Shown piece by piece: positions 3,367-50,503 of a stretch of DNA of 64,000 nt. This DNA comes from Paenibacillus alginolyticus DSM 5050 = NBRC 15375 (GTDB taxonomy: Bacteria > Bacillota > Bacilli > Paenibacillales > NBRC-103111). The stretch is taken from contig NZ_AUGY01000001.1 of the NCBI RefSeq assembly GCF_000422905.1, forward strand, positions 124,001-188,000, given 5' to 3'. Under the pieces are notes generated by a model that was not told the DNA's origin, ran no database searches, and saw only the letters and a list, made by a program, of their open reading frames with translations. A program made the position numbers and the translations under genes. How positions within the stretch are numbered: position 1 is the stretch's first letter; the number at the start of each line of letters is the position of its first letter.

Positions 3367-3912
3367 ATGAGTGATCATAACAATCACAAAGAAGAACAGC
3401 ATGGGAAGAAGCCCGGGACCAAACGCGAAATGTCTCGTCGACAATTTCTTTCTTACACCCTTGGTGGCGCTGGTGGATTCATGGGAGCCGGTATTATTAT
3501 ACCGATGATACGGTTTGCTATTGATCCTGTCCTTCAAAAGAAAAGTGCTTCGGATTGGGTTAAAGTTGTCGAAGAAAGTAAAATTACAAATGTTCCACAA
3601 GCGTTTACGTTCCAAATTCATCAGGTTGACGGCTGGTACGAAAGCGATGCTGAACTGGTTGCATGGATTTCCAAAGACAAGAGCGGCAAGCTCTTTGCGT
3701 TGAATCCAACTTGTAAGCATCTTGGATGTACAGTTAACTGGAACGATAATCCTGCTTACAAAGATCAGTATTTCTGTCCTTGTCACGGTGCTCACTATAC
3801 GCAAGATGGTAAGAACCTTGCTGTAGCGCCAAAGCCTTTGGATGAGTACACGACCAAAGTAGAGAATGGCTTCGTTTATGTGGGCCAACTACATGCTAAC
3901 ACAAGAGTATAA
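3367..3912 (+). CDS. qcrA: Menaquinol:cytochrome c reductase, Rieske iron-sulfur subunit
   Basis: Electron-transferring Rieske subunit of the bc complex, anchored in the membrane and passing electrons from menaquinol. The N-terminus carries SRRQFL followed by a hydrophobic, glycine-rich segment typical of a Tat-type uncleaved anchor. The 2Fe-2S ligands are in CKHLGC (Cys116, His118) and CPCHGA (Cys137, His140), with Cys121 and Cys139 placed for the usual disulfide. The ATG at 3367 is chosen over upstream codons in the open frame because AGGAGGG lies 11 bases before it. First gene of a tight three-gene operon. Confidence 0.95.
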   Translation: MSDHNNHKEEQHGKKPGTKREMSRRQFLSYTLGGAGGFMGAGIIIPMIRFAIDPVLQKKSASDWVKVVEESKITNVPQAFTFQIHQVDGWYESDAELVAWISKDKSGKLFALNPTCKHLGCTVNWNDNPAYKDQYFCPCHGAHYTQDGKNLAVAPKPLDEYTTKVENGFVYVGQLHANTRV

Positions 3913-27450: not shown

Positions 27451-27470
27451 GTTGTAGAAACTGCAACAAT
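27451..27470. repeat. Dispersed palindromic element, copy A
   Basis: GTTGTAG-AAAC-TGCAACAAT. Read on the other strand it is TTGTTGCA, four bases, CTACAAC, matching the consensus of the four copies. Confidence 0.5.
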
Positions 27471-27534
27471 GAAGTTGATTTCTTCTCACTTAGAGGTTGA
27501 TAGATGATTGAATTCATATTAGCTGTTGAATGAA

Positions 27535-27555
27535 ATTGTAGAAAGTGCAACAATT
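27535..27555. repeat. Dispersed palindromic element, copy B
   Basis: ATTGTAG-AAAG-TGCAACAAT, the same orientation as copy A and 84 bp from it. Confidence 0.5.
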
Positions 27556-27583
27556 TATGCCTAAATCTCGCCTCTCTCCCTTC

Positions 27584-27607
27584 ATTGTTGCATCATGTAC
27601 AACAATT
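27584..27607. repeat. Dispersed palindromic element, copy C
   Basis: ATTGTTGCA, five bases, TACAACAAT. It is in the opposite orientation to copies A and B and matches copy D at 13739. Confidence 0.5.
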
Positions 27608-47129: not shown

Positions 47130-48002
47130 TTAAATCCGGAACGGAGGCAACTGTCTGCCATCGATATCCGTGAAGCCATATTGTTCAGCTAGCGCACCTA
47201 CCTCGAGAAGTTGACCTGCCTTTTGACTTACATGAGGGTCGGATGCCAAAGCTACAACCGCGCGACCGATATATTCCACTGATTCTGTTGTATGAAGTGC
47301 TTCAACTTTCATGAAATCAGGATCACCTGCTTCTAATCCATAATGTTTATAAACGGCTTCCGTACGCATCCAGCCAGGTGCTAAAGTAAGTGCGATTACA
47401 TCGATATGGTTTGCTTTCAGATTCTGAGACATGGCGCGTGTCATATTCGCAACTGCTCGTTTCACCGTGTCATAAAAAACATTGATAGGGTAGTCGATGC
47501 CATAGTCAGAGTAGACGCCTGTGTTAATCAAAAGACCACGATTTTGTTCGAGGAAAAAGGTAGTCATCGCATACCGGCTTGAAACCATTTGAGCACGCAG
47601 TCCTGCCTCGAACATTTTGTCCCATCGCGACATCGGCTGCTCCCAAAAAGGAACGGAGAAATCGACATCATAATAGTCCTCATAACCGCCCCACGCATTA
47701 TTAACCACAATATCGAGTGTGCCTTGTTCTTGTTTAATACGTTCATACAAAGCTCTGACATCTGCGTCAATCGTATGGTCACAACGAACGGCGATTCCTA
47801 ATCCACCGCGCTGTGTAACGGCTTCGGCGGTATCCTCAATCGTACCCGTGAGATCTGTTCTCGTGGACTTCGCTCTCGTACTGCGTCCTGTCACATAGAC
47901 AGTAGCCCCAGCCTCCCCAAGTGCTAAGGCAATGCCGCGGCCTCCGCCTCGACTGGAACCGGTAACTAAGGCAACTCGTCCTTGCAAGTTTTTTGTTTGC
48001 AT
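47130..48002 (-). CDS. Short-chain dehydrogenase/reductase (SDR) family oxidoreductase
   Basis: An NAD(P)-dependent SDR of 290 residues. The cofactor motif is present in an unusual, extra-glycine form, TGSSRGGGRGIA, and is followed by a basic YVTGRSTRAKS loop suggesting NADP. Later motifs are VVNNAWGG (NNAG-like) and the catalytic Tyr-Lys pair in FYDTVKRAVANM. The substrate is unknown. AAGGAGG lies ahead of the ATG. The 461 bp upstream are dense in operator-like palindromes, so it is probably tightly regulated. Confidence 0.88.
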   Translation of the reverse strand: MQTKNLQGRVALVTGSSRGGGRGIALALGEAGATVYVTGRSTRAKSTRTDLTGTIEDTAEAVTQRGGLGIAVRCDHTIDADVRALYERIKQEQGTLDIVVNNAWGGYEDYYDVDFSVPFWEQPMSRWDKMFEAGLRAQMVSSRYAMTTFFLEQNRGLLINTGVYSDYGIDYPINVFYDTVKRAVANMTRAMSQNLKANHIDVIALTLAPGWMRTEAVYKHYGLEAGDPDFMKVEALHTTESVEYIGRAVVALASDPHVSQKAGQLLEVGALAEQYGFTDIDGRQLPPFRI

Positions 48003-48026
48003 CGTTATGCCTCCTTAGAGTTTTTT

Positions 48027-48040
48027 GCCAGAAAACTGGC
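48027..48040. promoter_or_regulatory. Operator-like palindrome 1 before the SDR gene
   Basis: GCCAGAAAACTGGC, perfect 5-bp arms, about 25 bp upstream of the SDR start codon and preceded on the plus strand by TTTTTT. A second copy lies 41 bp away, about four helical turns. Confidence 0.55.
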
Positions 48041-48067
48041 ATTGTAAGCATGAACTTAGCGTTTTTC

Positions 48068-48082
48068 GTCAGAAAAACTGGC
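48068..48082. promoter_or_regulatory. Operator-like palindrome 2 before the SDR gene
   Basis: GTCAGAAAAACTGGC with the same TTTTTC/T flank as palindrome 1. On the minus strand a TACAAT at 48042-48047 lies between the two copies and could be the SDR -10 box, so a protein bound at both would cover the promoter. Confidence 0.5.
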
Positions 48083-48128
48083 AGCATCATTCGATTCGTT
48101 TGCTCAGTTTTAATGTTACAACGAATCC

Positions 48129-48145
48129 ATGACAATTCTTGTCAT
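48129..48145. promoter_or_regulatory. 17-bp perfect palindrome ATGACAA-TTC-TTGTCAT
   Basis: Seven-base arms around TTC, about 127 bp upstream of the SDR start. I do not recognise the binding protein. Confidence 0.5.
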
Positions 48146-48201
48146 AGTATTTGGCGGCGCAGGAGAGATGTATCGTTAGACTCAAGGAGAGGATGTTTTA
48201 A

Positions 48202-48264
48202 ATGAGAAGGCATGTAGCAGATTCAAAAAAAAGAGATGTAAAAAATACATCAAAAAATGATTGA
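48202..48264 (+). CDS. Possible 20-residue peptide overlapping an operator
   Basis: A rightward frame of 20 codons starting at ATG, 9 bases after AAGGAGAGGATG, which is a strong ribosome binding site. The peptide is basic (MRRHVADSKKRDV at its start). Its distal part overlaps the first GATGTA-N5-TACATC palindrome, and the AT-rich stem AAAAAATGAT/ATCATTTTTT covers its end. It may be a leader peptide, a gene remnant, or chance. Confidence 0.25.
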   Translation: MRRHVADSKKRDVKNTSKND

Positions 48265-48416
48265 ATGATCATTTTTTTGCAGAATAGATGTATTTTGTGC
48301 ATCAAATATATCCATTTTCAAGGGAATTTCAATGTATTCGTTCATTTAAATGTACTTTTTGCATATATTCTCTCGATTACGCCGAAATAGTGTAAAATAG
48401 ATGCACTATCTGCATC
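48235..48416. repeat. Four phased copies of a 17-bp palindrome GATGYA-N5-TRCATC
   Basis: Copies are at 48235-48251 (GATGTA-AAAAA-TACATC), 48287-48303 (GATGTA-TTTTG-TGCATC), 48349-48365 (AATGTA-CTTTT-TGCATA) and 48400-48416 (GATGCA-CTATC-TGCATC). Start-to-start distances are 52, 62 and 51 bp, close to five, six and five helical turns, so all sites would face the same side of the DNA. A degenerate fifth half-site, AATGTA, occurs at 48331. The arrangement looks like cooperative binding by one regulator. Confidence 0.7.
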
Positions 48417-48463
48417 TAAATGTAAGGTGCCCGCCATTGCAACGGTCATATTAAATCCGCATG

Positions 48464-49432
48464 TCAGGTCAAATCATTCCCGTATGCATGCTGCATCACA
48501 CGAATTTGCTCCCGAATCCAATTCACCATCTCCAAGGGCTCTTCAACGAATGCGTCCGCACCTAAACTGAGAAAATACTTCGAAAAGTACGATAAATTAC
48601 TTCGATGCATGTCGGTCACTAATCGTCCACTGCCATCGTCATAAATTTCTACGTTACCAGCCACTCCATGACTACGCTCAAAGGTTCTAACACCAGCCGG
48701 GGTCAGCTTCACCCGTAGTTTCATTGTCATGGGGCCTGCCTCACGCTCCTGCCCAGCTAATAGCCAATCTCCAATTGTGTACTGTTTGAAGTTTTTGCTA
48801 GGATGTGCGGATTCTGCTCGTGCCAAGCTTCGTAAGCGATCTGCGCGAAATAAGAGAAATCCCTCTTTCTGAAAGCAGTAGGAGGGGAAATACCAGAAAC
48901 CATTGGACGCGTAAATGCCAATTGGCTGCACGACTCTCTCTGTAGTTCCTTCTTTGGAGGCGTAAGTAATGCGTAAAGGCATTTCATCAATAGAAGCTTC
49001 CAATAACTGCTCTAAGAAGGGGGAACCTTGTGTTCGCGTTGGCGTCCAGAAGGATACTCGATCTTTAAGTGCGTCGATTCTCACCTTCGTATCCGTAGGG
49101 AGATAGTAATAGAACTTATTCAGAGCCGAAGTCGATTCCGCTGCAAAAGGGAGCGCCCCATAGTACTGGAGCGACTGAAAGGCGAAGAACATCGCAACAG
49201 CCTCTTGTTCGGAGAAGAGTATAGGAGGGAGCATCCGCTTCTTTAATAAGCGAAATCCCCCATTTGGGCCAAATTCGGTATAGAGCGGCATTCCAAGCTC
49301 ACTCAACTCTTGTAAATCGCGGTGCATCGTGCGTTCCGAGACGCCGAATTCATCGGCCATTTCTTTCGTCGTGAACTGCATGCGCTCATTTACTGCCATC
49401 ATCAACTGGATTAACCGTTGTGTTTTGTTCAT
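48464..49432 (-). CDS. WYL-domain (YafY/DeoR-type) transcriptional regulator
   Basis: A 322-residue regulator. The N-terminal winged helix (residues 1-60) includes TTKEMADEFGVSERTMHRDLQEL. A WYL-type domain at about 140-220 carries a FRADRLRSL segment at its end, and a C-terminal WCX-like extension follows. WYL domains are thought to bind small ligands or nucleic acid. It is 21 bp downstream of the LysR gene in the same direction and may be cotranscribed. The 461-bp operator-rich gap lies after its stop and before the SDR gene, a likely target. Confidence 0.88.
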   Translation of the reverse strand: MNKTQRLIQLMMAVNERMQFTTKEMADEFGVSERTMHRDLQELSELGMPLYTEFGPNGGFRLLKKRMLPPILFSEQEAVAMFFAFQSLQYYGALPFAAESTSALNKFYYYLPTDTKVRIDALKDRVSFWTPTRTQGSPFLEQLLEASIDEMPLRITYASKEGTTERVVQPIGIYASNGFWYFPSYCFQKEGFLLFRADRLRSLARAESAHPSKNFKQYTIGDWLLAGQEREAGPMTMKLRVKLTPAGVRTFERSHGVAGNVEIYDDGSGRLVTDMHRSNLSYFSKYFLSLGADAFVEEPLEMVNWIREQIRVMQHAYGNDLT

Positions 49433-49453: not shown

Positions 49454-50347
49454 CTAACCGATTGTTCGCATAACCTCTTTCATTGTGGAAACGAAAGCCT
49501 CGGCCGCTTTAGAGATGTATCTGCCTTTCCGATAGGCAATAACGAGTGTGCGAGTAGGTCTGCCTTCAAGGGTGAGGTGAATCGGTGATAACTCACTGAA
49601 GCTTCTCTTTGAAATTAAAAAAGGGACGAAACCAATTCCCATGCCAGCGGCGACGAGGGACTGAACCGTTTCCATGTTGCTGGATTCGAAGACGATATTG
49701 GGGGTAATGCCAGCTTTTTGGCAGAGATCTAGTGTTAGCTTGCGAAAACCTTGCCCTTTTTTCAGAGCAATAAAAGCTTCTTTCTCTAATTGTTCGATTC
49801 GAATAGGTTCTTTACTCGCTGCTAATGGATGCGTTGGAGGTACCGCGAGGACGATTTCTTCCTCCAGTAAAGTCTCATAAACGAGAGAATCTTCTCGCAA
49901 CGGCAAGGAAAGCAGTGAGATATCGGTTTGTCCATTCATCGTAAGTGTTTCTAAGTTAGAGGAGGTCTCTTCAACAAGAGTAATTTCAATATCTGGATAA
50001 GCTGTTTGGAAGACAGGAACTACGAAAGGCAAGATTGTTGAGCCCGTTATTGGCATACTGCCTACGACAAGGCGCCCTTTTTTCATTTGCGAAATGTCTT
50101 CCATTTCTTTCTTCAGCTGCTCGACCATGTCGAGAATTTTTTGTGATTTTTCAACAAAAAGGGAGCCGGCATGGGTAAGCTCAACCGAATTGGTGCTGCG
50201 CTGGAAAAGGAGGACGCCGATCTCTTTCTCTAGCTTGGATAGCTGCTGGCTTAGGGAAGGCTGTGCAATATGAAGTTTCTCCGCGGCGCGCGAGAAATTG
50301 CGTTCGATTGCGATTTGAATCGCGTATTGAAGTTGACGTAATTCCAT
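49454..50347 (-). CDS. LysR-family transcriptional regulator
   Basis: A LysR-type regulator of 297 residues. The N-terminal helix-turn-helix is textbook (MELRQLQYAIQIAIERNFSRAAEKLHIAQPSLSQQLSKLE region), and the C-terminal effector domain has two alpha/beta lobes. The start at 50347 puts MELRQL first, as in most members, with AGGAG 12 bases upstream; earlier in-frame ATGs give an atypical N-terminus. The target is unknown. leuCD lies upstream in the other direction, beyond a small membrane-protein gene. Confidence 0.9.
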   Translation of the reverse strand: MELRQLQYAIQIAIERNFSRAAEKLHIAQPSLSQQLSKLEKEIGVLLFQRSTNSVELTHAGSLFVEKSQKILDMVEQLKKEMEDISQMKKGRLVVGSMPITGSTILPFVVPVFQTAYPDIEITLVEETSSNLETLTMNGQTDISLLSLPLREDSLVYETLLEEEIVLAVPPTHPLAASKEPIRIEQLEKEAFIALKKGQGFRKLTLDLCQKAGITPNIVFESSNMETVQSLVAAGMGIGFVPFLISKRSFSELSPIHLTLEGRPTRTLVIAYRKGRYISKAAEAFVSTMKEVMRTIG

Positions 50348-50503
50348 CGTAGGGTTCATCTCCTGATATGTAATAATCATAGCTTGTTTTATTGAAGCAG
50401 CCTATAAAGCATATAAATAATATACCAGATTTTAATCTTTGATATGAAAAAAAACTCGATAGAGCACTATCAATCGTTGAGCGACTGTGTTTAGAGGTAC
50501 AAA

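Follow-up and report, generated by a model that had tools for sequence, protein, structure and literature searches.

A dispersed, helically phased array of four palindromes in Paenibacillus, probably a site for one dimeric DNA-binding protein

Why should a gap between an oxidoreductase gene and a regulator gene carry four palindromes set at near-integral helical turns? This question arose from a 64,000-nucleotide stretch of the Paenibacillus alginolyticus DSM 5050 genome (hereafter, the window), in which the palindromes GATGTAAAAAATACATC (48235..48251), GATGTATTTTGTGCATC (48287..48303), AATGTACTTTTTGCATA (48349..48365) and GATGCACTATCTGCATC (48400..48416) follow one another at intervals of 52, 62 and 51 bp. 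The whole array (48233..48418), which is one copy of a family, is a dyad in which sites 1 and 2 point in and sites 3 and 4 point back; array and palindromes alike are given without strand. An earlier note on this DNA had read the sites as four copies of GATGYA-N5-TRCATC. Its positions and spacings stand, but that pattern is exact in three of the four palindromes, the site at 48349 having two mismatches in the outer letters. The core, TGYA-N5-TRCA, is exact in all four; it occurs 19 times in the window against 4.5 expected, and none of 100 shuffles reached 19 matches.

The neighbouring genes carry the identities that the note had assigned to them, with the domains confirmed by Pfam: an SDR oxidoreductase gene (47130..48002, minus strand; start codon 232 bp from the array), an HTH_11-WYL-WCX regulator gene (48464..49432, minus strand; stop codon 47 bp from the array) and a LysR-type regulator gene (49454..50380, minus strand). 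The gap is also free of genes around the array, as had been claimed: from the SDR start (48002) to the WYL stop (48464) there are only two overlapping mechanical open reading frames (ORFs), of 70 and 99 aa, neither of which reaches the array. Upstream of the SDR gene, window positions 48009-48083 hold GCCAGAAAACTGGCA-like repeats that recur at many places in the host and its relatives and constitute a second dispersed repeat.

The palindromes extend far beyond this gap. The host genome (8.33 Mb in 214 contigs) contains 32 exact GATGYA-type sites, several of them clustered at the same spacing, against none for the reversed pattern, and 150 GTTGYA-N5-TRCAAC sites against 3 for the reversed pattern. 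A sequence-only profile built from 13 copies, with places counted at E up to 0.0045, matches at least 78 distinct places in the host, 47 of which are nearly full-length arrays while many others are partial. The window array, itself one of the 13 copies, is matched at G000:C1:172233-172418 on the plus strand (E 3.2e-26) and at 172233-172419 on the minus strand (E 2.0e-20), and the dyad symmetry of the array leads to the same double-strand matching at many other places. With 150 of 3798 candidates scored, the list may lack further host copies; the four-site cluster C14:48297-48479, for one, was found by the GTTGYA-type pattern scan alone, outside the profile list. A few weak profile matches (C92:11434, C141:7905) resemble short tandem repeats by eye. 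Most places are intergenic, 68 of the 78 overlapping no ORF of 90 aa or more. The pattern in the earlier note is thus real and beyond chance, but its scope is genome-wide, and what recurs is the core TGYA-N5-TRCA with variable outer letters.

Profile matches occur in 41 of 60 relative genomes, a count that takes in some weak, uninspected matches: 27 of 30 in the same genus (host included), 4 of 7 elsewhere in its family and, beyond that family, 10 of 23 from the rest of the order. Within the genus, matches are numerous in, for example, G000-G003, G010, G016, G025 and G028, and there are none in G014, G020 and G029. Named genomes scanned with the pattern yielded 36 loci; 8 of the 18 examined carry an array with a score of at least 31/32 (shuffles reach at most 26), and all eight lie in Paenibacillus (phytorum, sp. 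Soil787, sp. V4I3) or in Cohnella faecalis, whose copy has the same spacing as the Paenibacillus arrays. In a viral collection, 161 of the listed loci were scanned and six reached the score threshold; at least three contigs of the collection have a convincing array, with spacings of 51/62/51, 52/62/51 and 52/62/52, and the other three of the six loci resemble coding repeats. By eye, the surroundings of these arrays comprise phage-like genes in two cases and ABC-transporter-like genes in the third. In contigs L512 and L548 of this collection, with phage-like genes by eye, the array lies downstream of a gene that, also by eye, we would call amidase-like. Plasmid and phage collections queried with one class B1 copy (see below) returned no match to the class B1 array.

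The outer letters divide the arrays into two classes: class A, to which the window copy belongs, has GATG or GCTG, and class B has GTTG. In class A, the centre mostly ends in G at sites 1 and 2 and mostly begins with C at sites 3 and 4, so the two pairs of sites point in opposite ways. Spacing is close to invariant. Across 46 of the 47 full host copies, for which intervals of 45-58, 55-69 and 45-58 bp were allowed, the second interval is 61-63 bp in all 46, the third is 50-52 bp in all 46 and the first is 51-52 bp in 41. Ungapped spacers, by contrast, have an identity of 0.39-0.49 within a class and 0.33-0.38 across classes, where shuffled spacers give 0.27-0.29; the length of the array spacers is far better kept than their sequence. 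The window also contains a class B relic, at 27451-27603, with three GTTGYA/TRCAAC-type palindromes (one having an outer mismatch) and an apparent deletion; the profile match to this relic falls at C1:151535-151637.

The extent of the repeated unit differs between classes. Of the 78 copies, 34 of class A and 35 of class B entered a comparison of flanks. Among the class A copies, flank sharing amounts to eight matches over all pairs and both sides, so that in class A the array itself is the unit. In class B1, a conserved unit common to the copies extends beyond the array. In Paenibacillus sp. Soil787, a class B array sits inside a non-coding unit of up to ~0.9-1.0 kb, present at least in part at 13 of 20 fetched loci (L271-L290), with ends that lie hundreds of bp outside the array. 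A terminator-like hairpin was seen by eye at one edge of the Soil787 unit and beside class B1.

We then asked how individual arrays change in place. Of the array loci fetched from relatives, 16 of 20 in G028 and 9 of 20 in G003 match a host array locus. Syntenic copies from four relatives (G003, G028, G016 and G001) were aligned to host copies as 28 hand-picked pairs, with IS-cut copies, duplicates and array-less pairs left out; two pairs were dropped (alignment not spanning; own array score too low), leaving 26 usable pairs at 20 loci, six of which were used twice. Core letters were substituted at 17 of 616 positions (0.028), compared with rates of 0.165 in spacers and 0.130 in flanks (core versus spacer, p 1e-24); N5 centres (0.095) and outer letters (0.102) fall between core and spacers. 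Within the palindrome, the Y position changes at the same pace as the spacers (0.135, p 0.5) and the R position more slowly (0.049), and 18 of 19 Y/R changes between orthologs stay pyrimidine or purine. Of 78 spacings compared between orthologs, 51 are unchanged, 25 are shifted by 1 bp and two by more. Indels occur at 9.1 per kb in arrays versus 19.7 in flanks, those longer than 3 bp number four in arrays and 116 in flanks, and gapped positions make up 1.0% of spacers versus 7.1% of flanks.

The copies and most of their orthologs came from the profile, whose matches are biased towards intact, normally spaced arrays, but neutrally mutated copies passed through a stand-in profile filter (an indel-free control) still gave a core rate of 0.134-0.167, and profile bias therefore does not explain the slow change of the core. 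Both the letters and the spacing of the arrays appear to be kept by selection. That the palindromes would be helically phased operators for a protein, as the earlier note proposed, is borne out in that 76 of the 78 ortholog spacings shift by at most 1 bp while the spacers drift, and the letters behave as a double-stranded DNA site.

Whose operators might they be? The note had nominated the adjacent WYL or LysR regulator, which would bind the four sites and control the SDR gene. The regulator genes do run in the same direction, the palindromes are phased, and the same gap carries an array in three close relatives (G003, G016 and G025). Against this, among 12 other orthologous SDR-WYL gaps the array is present in only those three; remnants occur in three more, from relatives that are also close (G015, G028 and G001), and six have no core palindrome. 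These six belong to more distant congeners (G006, G008, G020, G023, G024 and G026) that keep the SDR-WYL pair with a short gap and no exact core palindrome; genome-wide, the profile has no match in G020, 2 in G008, 6 in G024, 28 in G006, 22 in G023 and 37 in G026. Conservation of the element in orthologous gaps, which the note had put forward as its check, is largely absent outside the closest relatives, and because the same gap lacks the array in six more distant congeners, the array at this locus is not old. The orthologous gap of G025 (L177) shows a ~0.93-kb insert inside the array that seems to be a repeat with an internal duplication. The gene pair is instead accompanied by a different palindrome outside the array, TGACAATTCTTGTCA (TGACAA-N3-TTGTCA; 48130..48144, without strand), which is kept with or without the array and recurs with at most one mismatch in its arms in 12 of the 12 gaps in which the SDR side is retained, in near and distant congeners alike. 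TGACAATTCTTGTCA would be a likelier operator of the SDR-WYL pair than the array, whether for the WYL regulator or for a neighbour. With at least 78 places in the genome, the array is not the private switch of a neighbouring gene; recurrence and array-less congener gaps largely rule out a WYL or LysR operator here, and we give that reading almost no credence. Nor does the family resemble the small local regulon that had been envisaged, given that its places are mostly intergenic and that, of 177 ORFs adjoining arrays, only 15 have a homologue beside some other array.

Palindromes of this kind might alternatively act as hairpins, in a REP- or bcr1-type single-stranded DNA element or a transcribed small RNA. 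The predicted fold of the window array region is strong (z -3.9), segments that bear palindromes fold better than shuffles, as does, slightly, the middle spacer alone (mean z -0.84), and the terminator-like hairpin adjoining class B1, seen by eye, would suit a transcribed element. The strong fold, however, probably stems mainly from the palindromes themselves, and covariation points the other way. Y/R pairings fail to exceed shuffles in 47 of 48 tests, the sole exception being R3-L4 in class B own copies, which lies above all 500 shuffles, and outer letters fail to do so in 48 of 48. With a single exception in 48 tests, the Y/R letters lack covariation, and the sites therefore look like double-stranded protein sites rather than hairpins. 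Outer-letter pairing scores are strong over 47 mixed copies and absent within classes, so we read them as subfamily structure. In class B1, moreover, palindrome 2 has C..A (19/33) and palindrome 3 has T..G (28/33); these mispair on the plus and the minus strand, respectively, so neither strand keeps both stems. Spacers have diverged, and Rfam has no family near cut-off for the window copy (47950-48700). Covariation leads us to reject an RNA or hairpin element, which we regard as very improbable.

The family might instead be a purely selfish miniature transposon (MITE), with the two sites at each end serving as transposase-binding sites and the copies having no role for the host. Arrays are dispersed, mostly intergenic, and gained and lost between species, with presence/absence polymorphism at orthologous sites (for example, the flanks of the C51 copy lie 9 bp apart in G025); class B1 has amplified recently; and two inverted sites per end would fit transposon ends. 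Class A termini are palindromic, and the edges at one empty site (C51) and in the Soil787 copies are ragged; the fetched loci showed no autonomous partner with the same ends. Several observations speak against this account. Copies in place hold core and spacing while their spacers drift, as dead transposon copies would not. Sites of the core type are few outside arrays (six in the fetched host loci). The Soil787 mobile unit ends hundreds of bp outside the array, and neither C51 nor the Soil787 repeats revealed a target-site duplication of the array itself. The only transposase family searched for, the Y1 transposases (PF01797), has one gene in the host genome, unlinked to the arrays, and its 3.3-kb locus has no palindromes, which also rules out a REP/RAYT system. 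A purely selfish MITE accounts for the spread of the arrays but not for selection in place, and we consider it unlikely, although it deserves more weight than the other alternatives.

Of the 78 host arrays, 23 are no more than 600 bp from a contig end, where ~2.4 would be expected from the 428 ends; 22 of these 23 share their end sequence with the contig end of another array, in six groups, two of which contain transposase-type domains (rve_3, HTH_Tnp_1). One IS-like element had ten matches, one of which was set aside because its further sequence is not that of the element. In nine of nine junctions, on contigs C13 (L143), C27 (L162), C28 (L161), C30 (L156), C38 (L172), C46 (L139), C82 (L140), C92 (L164) and C191 (L142), it enters the palindrome directly after TGYA-N5-TRC, one of the nine being a degenerate site. 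The C30/C82 pair, whose flanks are adjacent in G003, suggests that 11 bp of the palindrome centre were duplicated (a single pair), and an 82-aa fragment of the element has no Pfam match. Such contacts raise the thought that arrays are kept as landing pads through their interplay with insertion sequences, for instance as decoys that draw insertions away from genes. Yet the other shared ends fall elsewhere in the arrays, the selection on spacing would be left unexplained, and the element may simply exploit the palindrome or a protein bound to it; we find this role improbable.

Gene context gives little direction. Among the 58 copies with both neighbours called, 20 lie between convergent, 6 between divergent and 32 between codirectional genes, and these proportions show no significant bias relative to 174 background long gaps (convergent 20/58 versus 41/174, p 0.12; divergent 6/58 versus 36/174, p 0.08). 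ABC ATPases alone turn up next to three or more arrays, and nothing beyond them emerged as a candidate binder among the recurrent neighbour genes. With the origin placed by GC skew from 20 sampled stretches per genome, the origin-proximal quarter holds 33/68, 22/48 and 27/73 of the listed copies in three genomes (KS p 6e-5, 1e-4 and 0.048), each list comprising 150 scored of ~3,800-3,900 candidates. In the third genome, moving the origin by 0.3 Mb changes p to 0.053 and 0.14. The lean towards the origin holds in two of the three genomes and is weak in the third, and it could reflect older, more conserved regions.

We think it probable that the family is a dispersed, dyad-symmetric, helically phased array of four operators for one putative dimeric protein, spread in part within mobile repeats and then selected. 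A full array consists of four palindromes of 13-17 bp separated by about five, six and five helical turns in the order > > < <. A single dimeric DNA-binding protein would occupy all four sites, and its dimers, lying on one face of the DNA, might come together as a single nucleoprotein node, wrapped or bridged. More tentatively, such nodes could act for the chromosome as a whole instead of a promoter, helping to organise, insulate or segregate it; we favour a role at this level because the neighbours differ from copy to copy and the copies lean to the origin. New places would be reached partly inside mobile repeats, as in class B1, after which selection would keep the sites. A chromosome-organising role is plausible. 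The fuller proposal, that the arrays are docking sites of a candidate Paenibacillales chromosome-organising protein, with four dimers forming a nucleoprotein node on each 180-bp array, at about a hundred places that mobile repeats copy and selection then maintains, is possible, but we advance it only tentatively.

Known systems share parts of this design. Phased multi-operator arrays of single promoters, in which looping or wrapping repressors bind dimer sites on one helical face, resemble a single copy; the present family differs from them in occupying at least 78 places rather than serving one gene, with 20 of 58 copies between convergent genes. REP/BIME elements, which are associated with RAYT, are intergenic inverted pairs of palindromes and targets of insertion sequences. 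The arrays share these three properties but differ in their unlinked Y1 transposase, in having no hairpin constraint and in their long fixed spacings. ERIC, BOX and RUP are intergenic MITE-like repeats. Bcr1-type repeats are, like the arrays, dispersed, mostly intergenic and of inverted symmetry, with copies gained and lost; the arrays differ by their diverged spacers, kept palindromes and spacing, almost absent covariation and slow core change. In an excerpt of a 2008 survey of stem-loop families, which describes Bcr1 (167 bp) in B. anthracis, the word Paenibacillus is absent (PMC2267715). We recognised no description of the present repeat in the part of the literature on Paenibacillus or on bcr1-type repeats that was covered, in which subscription journals are few.

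Closest in distribution are the sites of proteins that act on whole chromosomes. The sites of Noc in B. subtilis and of SlmA and MatP in E. coli are unlike the array core in sequence. Like the arrays, Noc sites (NBS) and those of SlmA and MatP comprise tens of dispersed palindromes per chromosome; the arrays differ by having four sites, fixed helical spacing, dyad symmetry and turnover between species. According to an excerpt of one report, Noc of B. subtilis has ~70 sites, which are largely absent from the terminus (PMC4331003). Two of the three genomes examined here likewise show fewer arrays with distance from the origin.

A spacing held nearly constant to the base pair, while the sequence between the sites drifts, is a strong signature of a multi-dimer complex, here at dozens of places. 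It points to an undescribed DNA-binding protein in a genus that is both large and in wide use, and it corrects the tempting reading of the array as an operator of the neighbouring gene, which annotation would otherwise repeat. These findings further suggest how one element can be both a mobile repeat and a protein-binding array under selection.
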